The translations under genes and the position numbers were made by a program. From positions 1 through 21,785 of the IMG/VR virus record IMGVR_UViG_3300020057_000167: a DNA stretch of 21,785 bases. The stretch is one strand, 5' to 3'. A model generated the notes under the pieces. It worked only from the letters and a program-made list of their open reading frames with translations. It was not told the DNA's origin and did no database searches. Of this stretch, positions 2,744 to 16,333 are shown piece after piece; within the stretch, counting starts at the first letter, position 1, and every line of letters begins with the position of its first letter. This DNA comes from a virus.

Positions 2744-3100
2744 ATGAAACAACACATAACACCTGAGCAATTAGATGAGTTGAGCCTCGATCAAAAAAGC
2801 AAGCTTAATAGCTGGATGCAAGAGCATAACTATTCTAGTTACTCGGTTGTAACACTAATGCTAACGATAAAAACAAACACCATTGGCTATGTGATAACTC
2901 CACTCTCAATCGGTCAGATGATTGAGTTTTTAATGGAAACAAATATTTATATTCAAGATAGTTATATTGATGATTCTTATAAAAATACCGTATCTCAAAG
3001 TGATTATGGCGTATTGGGAATTGGTTGGGATGGAGAACTTTGTGATACTCTTTGGGAAACAGTAAAAGAAGCACTGGATAAACTAGCTAAGAAGGAATAA
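2744..3100 (+). CDS. Hypothetical phage protein, 118 aa
   Basis: Unrecognised. It begins MKQHITPEQLDELSLDQKSKLNSWM, a helical, acidic start like that of many small phage accessory proteins, continues with beta-like stretches (YSVVTLMLTIKTNTIGYVITPL), and carries a Trp-containing segment, LGIGWDGELCDTLWETVKEAL, near the C-terminus. The pattern 'TPEQLDELSLDQKSKLxxW ... PLLSIGQMIEFL' is one I associate with small proteins coded near phage replication or lysis genes, without known function. The start lies two bases after the upstream stop, with AAGGGAA inside the end of that gene as ribosome binding site. It ends KKE, and AAGGAATAACTATG leads into the next gene. Confidence 0.65.
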   Translation: MKQHITPEQLDELSLDQKSKLNSWMQEHNYSSYSVVTLMLTIKTNTIGYVITPLSIGQMIEFLMETNIYIQDSYIDDSYKNTVSQSDYGVLGIGWDGELCDTLWETVKEALDKLAKKE

Positions 3101-3102
3101 CT

Positions 3103-3489
3103 ATGACAGACAGCACTAAAAACGCAATCTCAAAACTATTTATTAAGCACTCCATGCACACCAACCAGGCACTGATTAGTGACTTGGTGGTGATGGTAGA
3201 ACAAGCCATTATAGAATCCAAAGCCTCTCTAAGAGCCTATCAAAAAGCCTACCAGATTACTGAAAAATACAAAGCCTCTCAAAAAGCCTATCATAGTACC
3301 GATAAATTCAAAGCCTCTCTAAGAGCCTATCGGAGTAGCGAAAAAGGTATAGCCACACAAAAGGCCTACCAGAATAGTGAAAAATACAAAGCCTCTCAAA
3401 AAGCTTATCGGAGTACAGAAAAATACAAATCCTACCGAAAAGCTTATCGCTTGAAGAAAAAAGAAGTATTGGAGTACGGTAAAACATAA
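3103..3489 (+). CDS. Lys/Tyr-rich 13-residue repeat protein, 128 aa
   Basis: The first 40 residues form ordinary helices (ISKLFIKHSMHTNQALISDL, VVMVEQAIIES). Then a 13-residue unit of the form KASQKAYxSTEKY recurs: four full units at residues 57-69, 70-82, 83-95 and 96-108, with related partial units at 44-56 and 109-119. The tail is basic (RLKKKEVLEYGKT). The repeat region is strongly positive and should be helical, so it may bind nucleic acid or act as a spacer. Similar xAYxKAY repeats occur in other phage and giant-virus proteins of unknown role. The gene directly precedes the terminase promoter. The start is fixed by AAGGAATAACTATG. Confidence 0.7.
   Translation: MTDSTKNAISKLFIKHSMHTNQALISDLVVMVEQAIIESKASLRAYQKAYQITEKYKASQKAYHSTDKFKASLRAYRSSEKGIATQKAYQNSEKYKASQKAYRSTEKYKSYRKAYRLKKKEVLEYGKT
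3232..3459 (+). repeat. 39-base imperfect tandem repeats inside the Lys/Tyr repeat gene
   Basis: In-frame 39-base units encode KASxxAYxxxEKY. The words AAAGCCTCT and AAAGCCTA recur with drift at third positions, and some units differ by codon choices only (AGCCTAT versus AGCTTAT). The units are imperfect, uninterrupted by spacers and coding, so this is protein-repeat expansion and not a CRISPR array. Confidence 0.75.
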
Positions 3490-4079: not shown

Positions 4080-5508
4080 GAAGATAAAACTACTAGAATT
4101 GGTGGAAGAGAAAAATCGTAGGACATTAATCAATCCTCTCAAGTATGCTAAACGTCACGATAAGCAGGAAGAGTTTTATAAGGCCCAGCAAGTAATCAGA
4201 GCATTATTCTGGGGAAATCGCGTTGGTAAGACTGAGATTGGGGCGCAGGAAGTAGCGCGCTACCTACTTGGAGACCACGAATACAAAACTATAAAAACTC
4301 CAGTAGAAGTTTGGTCAATCTGCCCCTCATTTGATTCACAGAAGGAAACAACACAGCCAAAGCTACTAAGATATTTACCAGAGGGGTCAATTGCTTCAAT
4401 GACCTGGATAAGGAAGGGAATACTCTCTGAGCTGGTGCTAAAGAATGGTAGTAAAGTTACCTTTAAGTCTTACGAACAGGGACGCGCTAAGTTCCAAGGG
4501 GCCGGTAAAAGATTGATCTGGTTTGACGAAGAACCACCACATGACATCTGGGAAGAGTGTTTTGTGAGACAAGAAGCCGGTCAGAGGCTAGATATCGTCT
4601 TAACGATGACAGCCATTAAGGGTATGACCTGGGTTTACGATGATATATACCTCAACACAGACACTAAGTTGATTTATGTATCAGAAGCCGGATGGGATGA
4701 TAACCCTTGGCTTACCGAAGAACAAAAAGATATTATGTCTAGGGGGTTGACTCCTGATTCACTCAAGGTTCGCAGAGAAGGTAAGTTTGTTAGAAGAGTG
4801 GGACTGGTGTGCAATTGGTGGGATAGAAGTAAGCATTTAAAGGAGTATACAAATACTCCAATTGATTGGACTTTCTATGAGGTCTTAGATGGTGGTTACT
4901 CTGATCCAGCAGCATGGTTACTACTTGGTGTTGATAATGATGATACGGTCCATGTTATTGATGGATTCAGAACCCCTCTCTTGACTACAGAGGAAATCAA
5001 GACAAAACGTGATACGAAAATTGGAGGATTGCACATCAGAGCAGGTTGGGGAGACACAGATAATCCCAGATTAATAAAAGAATTATCCGCATTGGGTATG
5101 TATTTGCAACCAATCCAAAAGATACCTGGAGAAACTAAGTCTTGGGATGAAACACTAGCTAATAAGCTAGCTGAATATGGAATGATTCAAAAAGGTACAG
5201 GAGAACCAAGACTGTATATATCTACTAGCTTACAAACCATGAATCAGAGAACAGGTAATAATCATAATTGGATGATGCAAGAAATAGAAAACTTGTTGTG
5301 GCAAGAAAGAGTAGCTGATGGAATAATCGAAACTAAGCCAGCATGGGATGATCATAGGAAGTTTGGACACCACTTTGATGGTATTAGAGCATTGTCATAT
5401 TTTCTGGTATCGTATAAGAAGCCAAACAAATCTTTGGAAACGATAGTACAAGTAGAACCAAACCTAGATCCCTACTCACAATTATCATCTGGATATGAGC
5501 GACTATGA
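4060..5508 (+). CDS. terL: Terminase large subunit
   Basis: This is the ATPase-nuclease that drives DNA into the procapsid and cuts the concatemer. At 482 residues it is of normal length. The Walker A motif is GNRVGKT (52-58), Walker B is LIWFDEE (152-158) with catalytic Glu after the Asp, and a coupling motif region follows at LTMTAIKGMTWVYDD (181-195). The RNase H-like nuclease domain shows VLDGGYSDP (D277), WGDTDNP (D332/D334) and HFDGIRALSYF (D440), the expected acidic metal ligands. ATG 4060 is preceded by AAGG at good spacing and lies inside the small-subunit gene, so the two are probably coupled. The TGA stop overlaps the next ATG (ATGA). Confidence 0.93.
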   Translation: MQLDRSEKIKLLELVEEKNRRTLINPLKYAKRHDKQEEFYKAQQVIRALFWGNRVGKTEIGAQEVARYLLGDHEYKTIKTPVEVWSICPSFDSQKETTQPKLLRYLPEGSIASMTWIRKGILSELVLKNGSKVTFKSYEQGRAKFQGAGKRLIWFDEEPPHDIWEECFVRQEAGQRLDIVLTMTAIKGMTWVYDDIYLNTDTKLIYVSEAGWDDNPWLTEEQKDIMSRGLTPDSLKVRREGKFVRRVGLVCNWWDRSKHLKEYTNTPIDWTFYEVLDGGYSDPAAWLLLGVDNDDTVHVIDGFRTPLLTTEEIKTKRDTKIGGLHIRAGWGDTDNPRLIKELSALGMYLQPIQKIPGETKSWDETLANKLAEYGMIQKGTGEPRLYISTSLQTMNQRTGNNHNWMMQEIENLLWQERVADGIIETKPAWDDHRKFGHHFDGIRALSYFLVSYKKPNKSLETIVQVEPNLDPYSQLSSGYERL

Positions 5509-5696
5509 CGCAATTTGTGCCACATACACCAGAAAATATAGTTACAGTTGAAATAACTGAAAGAGAATTAATAGTGATTGAAGAACTTAGAAAGTATCCA
5601 TTTGGCAAGATAACCATTCACAAAGCTAATGGGGTGTTGGTCAGATTAGAGCCAGTAATAAGTATATTAATTAACCCTAAAGGTAGTCATGAATAA
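5505..5696 (+). CDS. Small conserved protein, DUF2292/YezD-like, 63 aa
   Basis: It overlaps the terminase stop by four bases (ATGA), so it is probably translated by coupling. The core reads ITERELIVIEELRKYPFGKITIHKANGVLVRLEPVISI, that is helix, then FGxITI strand, then a turn with G, then a final strand. This resembles the small DUF2292 (YezD) fold, with its pattern xLxxIxxIxFGxVxIxxxxGxxxxIE, although residues after the final strand differ. Proteins of this type often lie next to phage terminase genes. Function is unknown, and the family assignment is from memory and moderate. Confidence 0.65.
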   Translation: MTQFVPHTPENIVTVEITERELIVIEELRKYPFGKITIHKANGVLVRLEPVISILINPKGSHE

Positions 5697-10750: not shown

Positions 10751-11061
10751 TTACAGATGAACTTCTAGATACACCAGAGAAGATTGAATTAGCAGTAGCT
10801 AATTTTATTGATTTAGAAGGTCATTCAGGTTGGATACTACTTAAATCAATGATTAATGCCAATATATTAGTGTTGACAGAACAAATATTAGTAGGTGGAG
10901 ATGAAGAGGTGCTTAACTTGAAACGAAGAGATCTTATAGCGTACAGGAATGTAATTAATACTCCCTCAGAATATATTAAGAGATCGAGAATAAGCCAATC
11001 TCCAGCTCCCTCTTTTGATCCTTATGAGAAACAAAAGAAACTTGACGAAGATGTTGGGTAG
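10747..11061 (+). CDS. Small protein between portal and scaffold, 104 aa
   Basis: Unrecognised by name. It is helical throughout: DELLDTPEKIELAVANFIDL, GHSGWILLKSMINANILVLTEQIL, and LNLKRRDLIAYRNVINTPSEYI. The pattern of a Trp-containing helix, a helix rich in aliphatic residues and then 'LKRRDxxAYRNxIxxP' recurs in small proteins that sit after podovirus-type portal genes, where a role in head assembly or connector formation is possible. The ATG overlaps the portal stop (ATGA), so expression is coupled. The scaffold promoter lies over its last codons. Confidence 0.6.
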   Translation: MITDELLDTPEKIELAVANFIDLEGHSGWILLKSMINANILVLTEQILVGGDEEVLNLKRRDLIAYRNVINTPSEYIKRSRISQSPAPSFDPYEKQKKLDEDVG

Positions 11062-11071
11062 TATATATACT
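11042..11071 (+). promoter_or_regulatory. Promoter for the scaffold gene
   Basis: TTGACG (11042-11047) is separated by 18 bases from TATACT (11066-11071), each with one mismatch to the sigma-70 consensus. It overlaps the end of the preceding gene. The transcript would start near 11078 and run through a 35-base leader into the scaffold ATG at 11113. The layout matches that of the capsid promoter at 12354. Confidence 0.6.
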
Positions 11072-11093: not shown

Positions 11094-11114
11094 TGGAAAA
11101 ACCAAAGGCACTAT
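11094..11114 (+). repeat. 21-base leader element, copy A
   Basis: An exact 21-base match to 12402-12422 begins TGGAAAAACC and ends AAAGGCACTAT. In this copy AAAGG is the ribosome binding site and the last AT belongs to the ATG of the scaffold gene. The element lies about 16 bases after the predicted start of transcription. Confidence 0.75.
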
Positions 11115-11784
11115 GACAGACGAAAACCCAACAATTGACGTGGACGAATTACAGCTAGATGATGTTGTAGGCATGGATCCTGCAGATCTTACTGATACTC
11201 ATAAAGAGTACCTAGAATCTAACAAACAAAATCTCACATCAGATCAACAAGTAAAGTTTGGTTTCTCTAATGAAACCCCACCAGATGAAACCCCACCAAA
11301 AGATGATAAAGAAGATGCTTTTGATCCAAATAAAATAGATATTGGAGTTAAGAAAGCAATAGCTATTGATTTTGATGATAATGATGATGATGGTATGGAT
11401 TTAGAAGATAGAGCAAGAATTAATAAGCAAGTTCTAAAAGGTAACAAAGGTTTGCTTGAAAGACAACAAGAGTACGAGGATAGAAGCGCTTTAAATAATG
11501 TCATTTCGGAAAAACCAGAGCTAAAGAAATACGTAGAACTAGCATATAAGTACATGAAAGCACATCCTAGCCTAGTAGCTGAAGATGCCATGAAGATTGC
11601 AAGCGCTGGAGATCAACAGAGAATTGGTGCGATTAAAGAAAGAGAAGCCAGTGAGAGGGCCAAAAAGACAGCTAATCCAGGGTCAAGCTACCGAGCATCA
11701 TCCGGTGGAGCTAAAGACTGGGGTAAGGTAGATATCAATGAAGTAGAGGCGCAAATAGCATTCGTTAAAGGTCAAAGGTCTTAA
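11113..11784 (+). CDS. Putative capsid scaffolding protein, 223 aa
   Basis: The protein is very acidic and low in complexity over its first 110 residues (DVDELQLDDVVGMDPADL, ETPPDETPPKDDKEDAF, DFDDNDDDGMDLEDRARI). It then becomes helical (QEYEDRSALNNVI, KYVELAYKYMKAHPSLVAED, REASERAKK) and ends with a Gly/Ser linker and a short helix (KDWGKVDINEVEAQIAFVKG). This architecture and its position between portal and capsid genes are typical of scaffolds, whose C-terminal helix contacts the shell. Sequence alone does not prove it. The start ATG has AAAGG at four bases, inside the 21-base element shared with the capsid leader. Confidence 0.7.
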   Translation: MTDENPTIDVDELQLDDVVGMDPADLTDTHKEYLESNKQNLTSDQQVKFGFSNETPPDETPPKDDKEDAFDPNKIDIGVKKAIAIDFDDNDDDGMDLEDRARINKQVLKGNKGLLERQQEYEDRSALNNVISEKPELKKYVELAYKYMKAHPSLVAEDAMKIASAGDQQRIGAIKEREASERAKKTANPGSSYRASSGGAKDWGKVDINEVEAQIAFVKGQRS

Positions 11785-11807: not shown

Positions 11808-12350
11808 ATGCAACTAATTGATTTAACACTAAAAGAACTCCAAATCAGGGCAACTGAAGCTGGTATGCCAGAAGCAGTAGCTAACTCGTTTACCACCAAA
11901 GCTCAAGTTGTTGCTGTTATCGAGGCGATTGAATTAAAGAAAACGGCTCAACTTGTAGATCCTGCAACTTCCGCCACCGAAACACCTAAAGAGAAAGTAA
12001 ACACTGATAAAGCATGGCTCAGTAAAAGAGATGCTATGGGTAGAAAACTAGAATCACAACCTAAAGTCGGTATGGCTATTCAACTAGAACCAGGGGAAAA
12101 AGAAGGTATTGTTGAATCTAAGGTAGTAAATGGTATCAGGGAGTTCAGGGTCATTTCAGGTTCAGTCAAAGAAAAGATTATTAATGGTTATAAGTGGATT
12201 ATGCCAAAGGGAGTAATGACATTAGTCCCTGAACAAGTCTATGAATTGATATCTAACGAGCTTAATATCATGGCTAAGATTTCCAGTAAACAATCTATTG
12301 ATAGGATTGATCCTCAAACCGGCAAAACTGTCAGAGATGCTTTAAGTTAG
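11808..12350 (+). CDS. Phage head-cluster protein, 180 aa
   Basis: Residues about 1-42 (MQLIDLTLKELQIRATEAGM, then FTTKAQVVAVIEAIE) form a two-helix unit like SAP or Rho-N/HeH motifs, which commonly bind nucleic acid. A polar linker rich in Thr and Pro follows. The C-terminal half is a beta-rich domain (KVGMAIQLEPGEKEG, REFRVISGSVKEKIINGYKWIMPKG), then VPEQVYELISNELNI. Proteins with this final 'NGYKW.MPKGV...VPEQVYE.I' segment are frequent beside N4-gp56-type capsid genes, function unknown. AAAGGA lies eight bases before the ATG. The capsid promoter begins four bases after its TAG. Confidence 0.65.
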   Translation: MQLIDLTLKELQIRATEAGMPEAVANSFTTKAQVVAVIEAIELKKTAQLVDPATSATETPKEKVNTDKAWLSKRDAMGRKLESQPKVGMAIQLEPGEKEGIVESKVVNGIREFRVISGSVKEKIINGYKWIMPKGVMTLVPEQVYELISNELNIMAKISSKQSIDRIDPQTGKTVRDALS

Positions 12351-12353
12351 CTA

Positions 12354-12382
12354 TTGACATTATAATTTAACTCTAGGATACT
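12354..12382 (+). promoter_or_regulatory. Promoter for the major capsid leader
   Basis: A perfect TTGACA (12354-12359), a 17-base spacer and GATACT (12377-12382) form one of the strongest promoters in the window. Transcription would start near 12389. It is followed by a second copy of the 21-base leader element and then by a strong intrinsic terminator before the capsid gene. Confidence 0.65.
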
Positions 12383-12401
12383 AATCGCTAGTTAGACCTA
12401 T

Positions 12402-12422
12402 TGGAAAAACCAAAGGCACTAT
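12402..12422 (+). repeat. 21-base leader element, copy B
   Basis: An exact copy of 11094-11114. Here the start codon of copy A is lost (AAAGGCACTATG has become AAAGGCACTATT), and AAAGGCACTATT has become the 5' arm of a terminator hairpin. Confidence 0.75.
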
Positions 12423-12449
12423 TTCTGTAAAGGAATGGTGCCTTTTTTT
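12412..12449 (+). terminator. Intrinsic terminator or attenuator ahead of the capsid gene
   Basis: AAAGGCACTATT (12412-12423) pairs with AATGGTGCCTTT (12434-12445) as a 12-base-pair stem with one G-U pair. The ten-base loop is TCTGTAAAGG, and a run of seven T ends at 12449. It lies downstream of the capsid promoter, so it would act on the message for the capsid gene itself. The loop contains AAAGG and the 3' arm contains an ATG (12435) in frame with the capsid gene, so ribosome binding could oppose hairpin formation. Confidence 0.7.
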
Positions 12450-12476
12450 ATTATAAATAATAAAGAGGAATGCAAA

Positions 12477-13439
12477 ATGCCAGTTACATCAAGATCAACC
12501 ATCGCTGCAGAAGTTAATAACTTTTATGACAGAACTTTATTAGTAAGAGCAGTACCAAATTTCGTACACAATAGATTTGCTCAAGTTAGAGATATTCCAC
12601 GTATGGGTGGTACTAACGTTATTAAGTTTCGCCGATATGGTAGCTTAACAGCTAATACTACACCTTTGGTTGATGGCGTTACTCCAGATGGAACTTCACT
12701 CAGTATTACTGATGTGACGGCAACCGTCCTGCAATACGGTGACTATGTGACTTTGACTGATAAACTTCAGATGGAAACATACGATCCTATTTTAACTGAA
12801 ACTGCAGAAATTCTTGGAGAGCAAGCCGGAGATGTGTTAGACCAACTCTGTAGAGCAGTCTTAGCAGCTGGAGCATCTAATCAATACGCTTCAACCGCTA
12901 CCAGCACCGCTACTATTTCAAGTGGCATGAAATTTACTCGAGATGAAGCTAAGGAAGCAGTCCGAACTCTCAAGAACAATAATGCTAAACCAGTTACTTC
13001 CATGATCAATCCAGGAACAGGATACAACACCGTACCTATGAACGCAGCGTTTATCGGTATCGTACATCCTTTCACGACCTACGATTTAGATAATGCAACA
13101 GGTTGGATTCCAGTTGAGAAGTATGCTAACAAGTCAGATGTCATGCCTGATGAAGTTGGTAGTTTAGCAGGAGTTAGATTTATTGAGACATCAAATGCTT
13201 ACACTGTAGCTGGTACCTTAGTTACCACAGTTTACGGCACATTGATTTTCGGTAAAAATGCGTATGCTCAAACTCGTATTTCAGGAGAATCATTAAAGAA
13301 TATCGTTAAGCCACTCGGTACGGCCGGATCAGCAGATCCTCTAGATCAGAGAAGCACATCAGGTTGGAAAGCTAGCTATGTTGCTAAAGTGCTTAATGCT
13401 AACTTTATCATCTTAGTGGAACACGCAGTGTCAGCATAG
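12477..13439 (+). CDS. Major capsid protein, N4-gp56 family
   Basis: This 320-residue protein forms the capsid shell. The N-terminal half carries the family's typical run. AVPNFVHNRFAQVRDIPRMGG is followed by TNVIKFRRYGSLTANTTPL, DGVTPDGTSLSITDVTATV, QYGDYVTLTDKLQMETYDPIL and AEILGEQAGDVLDQLCR. The fold is expected to be HK97-like. The C-terminal half has DEVGSLAGVRFIETSNAY, GTLIFGKNAYAQTRI and DPLDQRSTSGWKASYVAKVLN, as in other members. I choose ATG 12477, which has AGAGGA at good spacing and begins MPVTSRST. An in-frame ATG at 12435 would add 14 residues coded by the terminator stem and T run. A promoter, leader element and terminator precede it. Confidence 0.92.
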   Translation: MPVTSRSTIAAEVNNFYDRTLLVRAVPNFVHNRFAQVRDIPRMGGTNVIKFRRYGSLTANTTPLVDGVTPDGTSLSITDVTATVLQYGDYVTLTDKLQMETYDPILTETAEILGEQAGDVLDQLCRAVLAAGASNQYASTATSTATISSGMKFTRDEAKEAVRTLKNNNAKPVTSMINPGTGYNTVPMNAAFIGIVHPFTTYDLDNATGWIPVEKYANKSDVMPDEVGSLAGVRFIETSNAYTVAGTLVTTVYGTLIFGKNAYAQTRISGESLKNIVKPLGTAGSADPLDQRSTSGWKASYVAKVLNANFIILVEHAVSA

Positions 13440-16156: not shown

Positions 16157-16333
16157 ATGGCGTGGAGTAAAACAGCTAAACCAACAATCAGTTTTAGTAG
16201 GGTAGCTAAACCATCAATTGCAGATAACTTTGTATTTCAAGATGGTAATAACTTTGTATTTCAAGATGGTAATAACTTTGTGCTTGATATTAATATAGGA
16301 ATCGACTGGAATAAAGTAGCTAAACCAACATAA
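16157..16333 (+). CDS. Repeat-rich small protein with KPT motifs, 58 aa
   Basis: This 58-residue frame has AAAGGA before ATG 16157 and ends at TAA 16331-16333, one base before the next ATG. It contains three related motifs, WSKTAKPT (3-10), SRVAKPS (14-20) and WNKVAKPT (51-58), and a central eight-residue tandem repeat, NFVFQDGN (24-39), ending NFVLD. The simple repeats and aromatic-Lys-Pro motifs suggest a beta-prism or surface peptide. Similar W-x-x-x-x-KP repeat peptides appear in uncultured phage tail clusters, so an appendage role is likely but unproven. Confidence 0.6.
   Translation: MAWSKTAKPTISFSRVAKPSIADNFVFQDGNNFVFQDGNNFVLDINIGIDWNKVAKPT
16224..16281 (+). repeat. 24-base tandem repeat inside the KPT-repeat gene
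   Basis: Copies start at 16224, 16248 and 16272 with a 24-base period. The first two are identical (ATAACTTTGTATTTCAAGAT and four more bases) and the third diverges after ten bases. Exact identity suggests recent expansion or contraction by slippage, in steps of eight codons. Confidence 0.85.

Follow-up and report, generated by a model that had tools for sequence, protein, structure and literature searches.

A covarying mini-hairpin behind late-gene promoters of an uncultured phage lineage and its possible role in terminator read-through

In one phage lineage, strong sigma70-type promoters of late genes are followed by an 11-nt mini-hairpin with an A-rich pentaloop and, before the capsid gene, by a predicted intrinsic terminator; this promoter-hairpin-terminator architecture is linked almost exclusively to late genes and is restricted to that lineage. 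We give slightly better than an even chance to the reading that late genes are controlled by a conditional terminator close to the promoter and that a read-through factor recognizes the mini-hairpin. The analysis started from one stretch of 21,785 nucleotides (IMG/VR record IMGVR_UViG_3300020057_000167, positions 1 to 21,785), here called the window, and all coordinates are positions in it unless a relative is named. The promoters and terminators are predictions.

The capsid leader and its terminator

The capsid promoter (TTGACA-17-GATACT, 12354..12382, plus strand) is of the sigma70 type and occupies the same place in the leaders of relatives. As it ends at 12382, transcription is expected to start at about 12389. 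The mini-hairpin (12402..12412, plus strand) has the sequence TGG-AAAAA-CCA, i.e., a stem of 3 bp and an A5 loop within 11 nt, and is supported by covariation and by the pairing of its outer bases. Its last base, 12412, also belongs to the arm of the terminator, a stem-loop of up to 15 pairs around a GTAA loop at 12427-12430 (12412..12445, plus strand), called from its fold and from the stems of relatives and followed by a run of seven T (12443..12449, plus strand). The major capsid gene (12477..13439, plus strand) matches the major head protein family PHROG 1357 with an E-value of 2.9e-70, and its start codon, ATG 12477, is backed by relatives.

The initial annotation had described a hairpin with seven T at 12412-12449, lying ahead of the capsid gene and about 60 nt past the point where transcripts of a strong promoter should start. 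Both the structure and its position are borne out by our analysis: the region 12389-12490 folds with -25.7 kcal/mol compared to -15.1 kcal/mol for shuffled sequences (z -3.6), and an RNA stopped at this terminator would be about 60 nt long. The element at 12412-12449 is the sole terminator returned by a stricter scan of the window and the only convincing intrinsic terminator found there, with a GC-containing stem and then the T-run. The distance from the T-run to the capsid start is 27 nt in the window and shorter in some relatives, and no promoter fits into 27 nt or less; the capsid promoter thus lies upstream and read-through of the terminator is required. The model R1 locates the unit of the window at 12388-12450 with a score of 48.2 bits.

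Relatives were collected with a capsid protein query, which gave 47 viral contigs, and with a second query, which gave 61, many identical to those of the first set. Further contigs were retrieved from IMG/VR by patterns combining promoter and hairpin, or hairpin and T-run. We should note that the records bearing the element are metagenomic contigs throughout, and that many are fragments. Relatives closer to the window (capsid identity of 57% or higher, in most cases above 62%) share the order of promoter, mini-hairpin, terminator and capsid start, and this order of promoter, hairpin, terminator and gene is found in most of the 42 aligned units. Most relatives below about 62% capsid identity contain neither the hairpin nor the terminator, and their capsid gene closely follows the upstream gene. 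The model R1 matches the unit in almost every clade record that was searched (E 2e-4 or better) and reaches no E-value under 0.07 in 32 loci, most of which belong to distant relatives. The promoter of the terminator units is close to consensus, with an exact TTGACA in 31 out of 43 and a spacer of 17-18 nt in 40 out of 43.

Among named phage records no DNA match was found, and the best protein relatives listed there are 27-40% identical. In the two annotated phages that we examined, Pagevirus Pascal and Paenibacillus phage API480, the capsid gene comes shortly after the preceding gene, with no annotated terminator between them. A search for the host with the capsid protein in 380 genomes of one phylum, centred on a Campbellbacteria MAG, yielded two distant matches (31-34%), which are uninformative.

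The terminator stem forms in all 42 aligned units despite widely different sequences (mean -13.8 kcal/mol), and a run of 6-8 T follows in each of them, either immediately or with a few other bases in between. Between distant members, the sequence of the arms has changed almost completely with the pairing kept. Compensatory changes of this kind among relatives had been named in the initial annotation as a check, and a lack of stem conservation as one of the points that would refute its proposal. Since the arms differ and the pairing is kept, the outcome favours a terminator, and a conditional stop before the capsid gene is plausible because the terminator is conserved with these compensatory changes.

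Terminator-type leaders, consisting of promoter, hairpin, terminator and gene, precede the capsid gene and, in some genomes, other late genes. Additional units of this type occur in the contigs G001 (5785), G021 (2667, 15080), G022 (3922, 11628) and G023, with G021 and G022 carrying multiple units at different late genes. Where a genome carries several units, their terminators differ from one another. We never found a capsid leader having the terminator without the mini-hairpin; the few capsid leaders with a hairpin and no terminator are a scan miss (L012), a degenerate terminator (L109) and two chance-like cases. Some hairpin-terminator units sit between genes without a clear promoter (L009 4711, L177 6253). 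The hairpin is missing from almost all other strong promoters of these genomes. An exception to the link with late genes is G011, in which the hairpin is located at a gene without an assigned role.

The mini-hairpin in scaffold and capsid leaders

The conserved part of the leader is the mini-hairpin, which was overlooked in the initial annotation; outside of it, the leader RNA is little conserved. The window contains a second copy of the capsid-leader hairpin, again TGG-AAAAA-CCA (11094..11104, plus strand), in the leader of the putative scaffold gene, where no terminator follows. This leader has its own sigma70-type promoter (TTGACG-18-TATACT, 11042..11071, plus strand). The putative scaffold gene (11113..11784, plus strand) has no Pfam or PHROG match and is assigned by its position between portal and capsid and by homologues that follow the mini-hairpin in relatives. 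Between scaffold and capsid lies a gene for a protein of 180 aa (11808..12350, plus strand), recognized by alignment, whose N-terminal segment is weakly SAP-like in most element-bearing genomes. Scaffold-type leaders generally consist of a promoter, with an exact TTGACA in 23 out of 26 units, and a hairpin 0-8 nt before the start codon, without a terminator except in L079.

Three scaffold leaders deviate in their organization. That of L079 (4096-4170) has a promoter, a hairpin, a terminator and a second hairpin before the scaffold gene, suggestive of a capsid-type leader brought in by recombination. In L030 (2739-3252), an open reading frame of 166 aa, which by its sequence may encode an HNH-type endonuclease, is present between the mini-hairpin and the scaffold start, and L014 (2349-2590) has one of 74 aa at this place.

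An exact 21-nt direct repeat, TGGAAAAACCAAAGGCACTAT, is found at 11094-11114 and 12402-12422, with 0 expected by chance, and it contains the mini-hairpin. This repeat accounts for the complementarity between the terminator RNA and the scaffold ribosome site from which a small RNA linking capsid and scaffold levels had been proposed. The complementarity is present in the window, but the pairing is not conserved among relatives: with the closest relatives of the window set aside, the terminator RNA pairs with the scaffold leader of its own phage at -9.1 kcal/mol on average and with the leaders of other phages at -8.7 kcal/mol (sd 2.7). The feature really common to scaffold and capsid leaders is the mini-hairpin.

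The core of the element is NNG-AAAAA-CNN, usually with TAA directly before it. Its commonest form is CGG-AAAAA-CCG; other stems are TGG/CCA, AGG/CCT, CCG/CGG, CTG/CAG, CAG/CTG, and GGG/CCC. The A-rich loop is nearly invariant, with the variants AAGAA, AAATA, and AAAAC. With GAA[AG][AT][AC]C as the only anchor, scaffold and capsid leaders gave 61 matches, 54 of which kept both outer pairs, versus 136 out of 881 across the same loci overall. This test is less biased than the covariation analysis of 28 copies, which were chosen to show the range of stems and whose counts include related sequences: all of these copies are paired (100%), with 15 double-change cells versus 2.2 in shuffles and a covariation score of 0.67 versus 0.15 in shuffles and at most 0.12 when slid. 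The stems differ between the scaffold and capsid leaders within one phage (e.g., L011, L017, L018), and inheritance alone therefore does not explain their variety.

The commonest form, CGG-AAAAA-CCG, occurs in 31 stretches of the viral collection, about 20 of which are real units; in the same collection, the form with a swapped closing pair, CGC-AAAAA-GCG, has a single match, apparently by chance. A 3-bp stem is weak on its own, with about -1 kcal/mol for the commonest form. In 18 clade records, GGAAAAACC is confined to one strand within each record. The conserved loop, the covarying stem and the fixed orientation together point to recognition of the mini-hairpin as RNA.

The window has no Rfam match at the gathering score; the weak matches obtained all fall below it. 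A search of 257 Gb of cellular genomes for the mini-hairpin element gave 19 pattern matches, which we take as chance because none has the full layout of promoter, hairpin and terminator and most look like coding sequence. The element is nowhere mentioned in the open-access literature searched, in which the exact-string matches looked irrelevant by title.

Read-through of the terminator and competing explanations

A near-consensus promoter ahead of a conserved terminator would make little sense unless read-through is allowed or controlled. We infer from the leaders that the terminator is functional, that its read-through is regulated and that the hairpin is the site recognized. The strong sigma70 promoter would start the transcript, and within about 10-20 nt the RNA could fold into the 3-bp mini-hairpin with its A-rich pentaloop. 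Directly after this hairpin, the intrinsic terminator would come in the capsid leader, and some genomes would have it at other late genes too; this terminator, if unaided, would end most transcripts near 12449 as an RNA of roughly 60 nt. A putative factor, most likely phage-made and late, would bind the mini-hairpin on the nascent RNA, allowing the polymerase to read through.

The main difficulty for regulated read-through is the scaffold-type leader, in which the hairpin has no terminator to act on. Polymerases starting at the scaffold promoter may be modified at its hairpin and arrive in this state at the capsid terminator, which lies 1.2-2 kb further downstream, and we consider this polymerase modification, with about an even chance or slightly more, a likelier function of the scaffold-type hairpin than a role in translation, which we regard as unlikely. 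Given such leaders, the hairpin may act otherwise, for example in translation. Also weighing against the read-through reading are the weakness of a lone 3-bp stem and the negative searches for NusG-type and PF06530 proteins in ten records and for a conserved boxA-like sequence, and the terminator could be simply leaky.

The role in translation would be that of an operator. A phage protein, such as free scaffold or capsid protein, would bind the mini-hairpin and block ribosomes at the scaffold start; in the capsid leader, it would also affect the terminator next to the hairpin, and it would set the ratio of scaffold to capsid. In scaffold leaders, 0-8 nt separate the hairpin from the start codon and a clear Shine-Dalgarno sequence is often missing, the scaffold leader of L079 keeps its second hairpin copy beside the start codon, past the terminator, and the 180-aa gene appears to begin at a hairpin in L075 and G022. 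However, the hairpin of the capsid leader lies 38-76 nt from the start codon and is tied to the terminator, the units of L009 and L177 that lie between genes without a clear promoter fit an operator poorly, and nearness to a start codon is hard to avoid in short 5' leaders. We consider such an operator unlikely, though the likeliest of the alternatives to regulated read-through.

Rather unlikely is a 5' leader structure that stabilizes the capsid mRNA, its U-rich stretch aiding ribosome binding, and that is no working terminator. Several capsid leaders without a clear Shine-Dalgarno sequence do have the T-run just before the start codon (L011, L014, L016), but the 6-8 T after the stem in all aligned units are needed by a terminator and not by a stabilizer.

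The leader could also be a small-RNA gene with leaky read-through, producing an abundant short RNA acting in trans together with some transcripts into the capsid gene. The spacing of promoter and terminator suits an RNA of roughly 60 nt, and there is a precedent in IsrK of Gifsy-1, for which the function in trans depends on binding to a long transcript (PMC4825925). As in IsrK, a promoter and a terminator with read-through would give a short and a long RNA, in that case from a prophage; unlike in IsrK, the pairing with the target tested here, the scaffold leader, is not conserved. Since the leader is little conserved apart from the hairpin and single genomes hold several units with different terminators, we find this explanation quite improbable.

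A translation-dependent attenuator, in which a ribosome at AAAGG and ATG 12435 melts the terminator as had been suggested initially, is highly improbable. The window does contain ATG 12435 in frame with the capsid gene and the AAAGG motif (12429-12433), but most of this motif lies at the tip of the 3' arm and not free in the loop, and the predicted fold has it largely base-paired. Only 3 out of 43 terminators include an in-frame ATG, two of these three being closely related to each other, and no leader reading frame common to the units was seen. Both ribosome-dependent attenuation and pairing of a small RNA thus fail as conserved functions, a judgement that concerns the relatives and not this one phage.

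To return to regulated read-through, its wider form is a tentative proposal to which we give somewhat less than an even chance: a previously undescribed phage antitermination, in which an 11-nt A-loop hairpin behind sigma70 promoters tags late transcripts and a phage-encoded factor reads this tag to get past adjacent terminators, so that timing is set on the nascent RNA and not by the choice of promoter. A lineage of uncultured phages could then time and balance its late genes using host-type promoters, with control exerted not by the promoter but by a terminator and a very small covarying RNA hairpin. As a short, modular element, it recurs before scaffold, capsid and other late genes, and the motif helps to flag late transcription units in metagenomic phage contigs. 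Were a read-through factor identified, phages would have a new means of regulating bacterial RNA polymerase, and gene circuits would gain a compact switch.

Known antitermination systems and candidate factors

The unit may work like the LoaP/dfn, N/nut, Q or put systems, which we treat as analogies rather than as its class. The nearest analogy is the LoaP/dfn leader, with N/nut, Q and HK022 put as looser ones. In Bacillus velezensis, the 5' leader of dfn contains a hairpin and an intrinsic terminator with factor-dependent read-through that needs the hairpin (PMC12691694). This hairpin is of the UNCG type, stands apart from the terminator in a leader of 417 nt and acts via a NusG paralogue (PMC12691694). 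Both leaders thus have a small RNA hairpin near the 5' end and then an intrinsic terminator, but the phage hairpin has an A-rich pentaloop and abuts the terminator. The NusG N-terminal domain (PF02357) had no match in ten phage records, in a search whose control matched in 11 out of 14 genomes; a LoaP supplied by the host would be compatible with this result.

The boxB hairpin of phage lambda has the pentaloop GAAAA. The N/nut system may be comparable to the unit: a short RNA hairpin around an A-rich pentaloop lies near the start of phage transcripts in both, and terminators are read through, as is proposed for the unit. It differs in its stem of 5 bp, compared to 3 bp in our element, and in serving early rather than late genes. 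No conserved boxA-like block was found in the 24 nt that precede the hairpin; the TAA adjoining it is the one conserved sequence there. Small basic open reading frames are present in the phage, none of which was singled out as an N-like arginine-rich protein.

Phage lambda also has a promoter-proximal terminator in its pR'-tR' region. There, as in the capsid leader, late genes lie behind a strong promoter and such a terminator, and Q is the late factor that lets the polymerase through. Recognition by lambda-type Q involves a -10-like pause element together with DNA between -35 and -10 (PMC6606751), unlike the phages studied here, in which the conserved element is a transcribed hairpin. Beyond a preference for A/T, their spacers contain no conserved block between -35 and -10 that would represent a Q-like DNA element. 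PF06530, the only Q family searched, went unmatched in ten records, of which some are incomplete. Like the mini-hairpin, the put element of HK022 folds in nascent RNA soon after a phage promoter; it comprises about 70 nt with two long stem-loops and acts without a protein (PMC9378689), unlike the scaffold-type element, which is a single 11-nt hairpin.

Two protein families are candidates for the putative factor, but they are leads only, and shared ancestry alone could give both of their patterns. A family of 63-79 aa, encoded just after the large terminase gene, is present by phylogenetic profile in seven out of ten element-bearing genomes and in none of nine others. Its member in the window, a 63-aa protein (5505-5696), is weakly DUF2292-like, and its structural model has middling confidence. 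The second lead is the N-terminal segment of the 180-aa protein, which according to the alignment is present in most element-bearing genomes and absent from the others. SAP matches are weak and were obtained for four out of 12 members of this family (best E 0.019), and a structure search with the 180-aa protein gave no match; a role of this protein as regulator is possible.

The window has three further features. An open reading frame of 128 aa (3103-3489) is strongly basic and contains four to five tandem repeats of 39 nt (13 aa) of the type KASQKAYRSTEKY. In the first 3 kb, several genes share a near-identical ribosome-site block, AAAAAGGACTAACTTATGA (55-80, 277-302, 937-960, 1236-1260, 1418-1443, 1556-1588, 1768-1791, and 3092-3115), which the scaffold and capsid leaders lack. 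A perfect 24-nt tandem duplication, ATAACTTTGTATTTCAAGATGGTA, is located at 16224-16271 in a short repeat-rich stretch after a gene for a protein of 245 aa.
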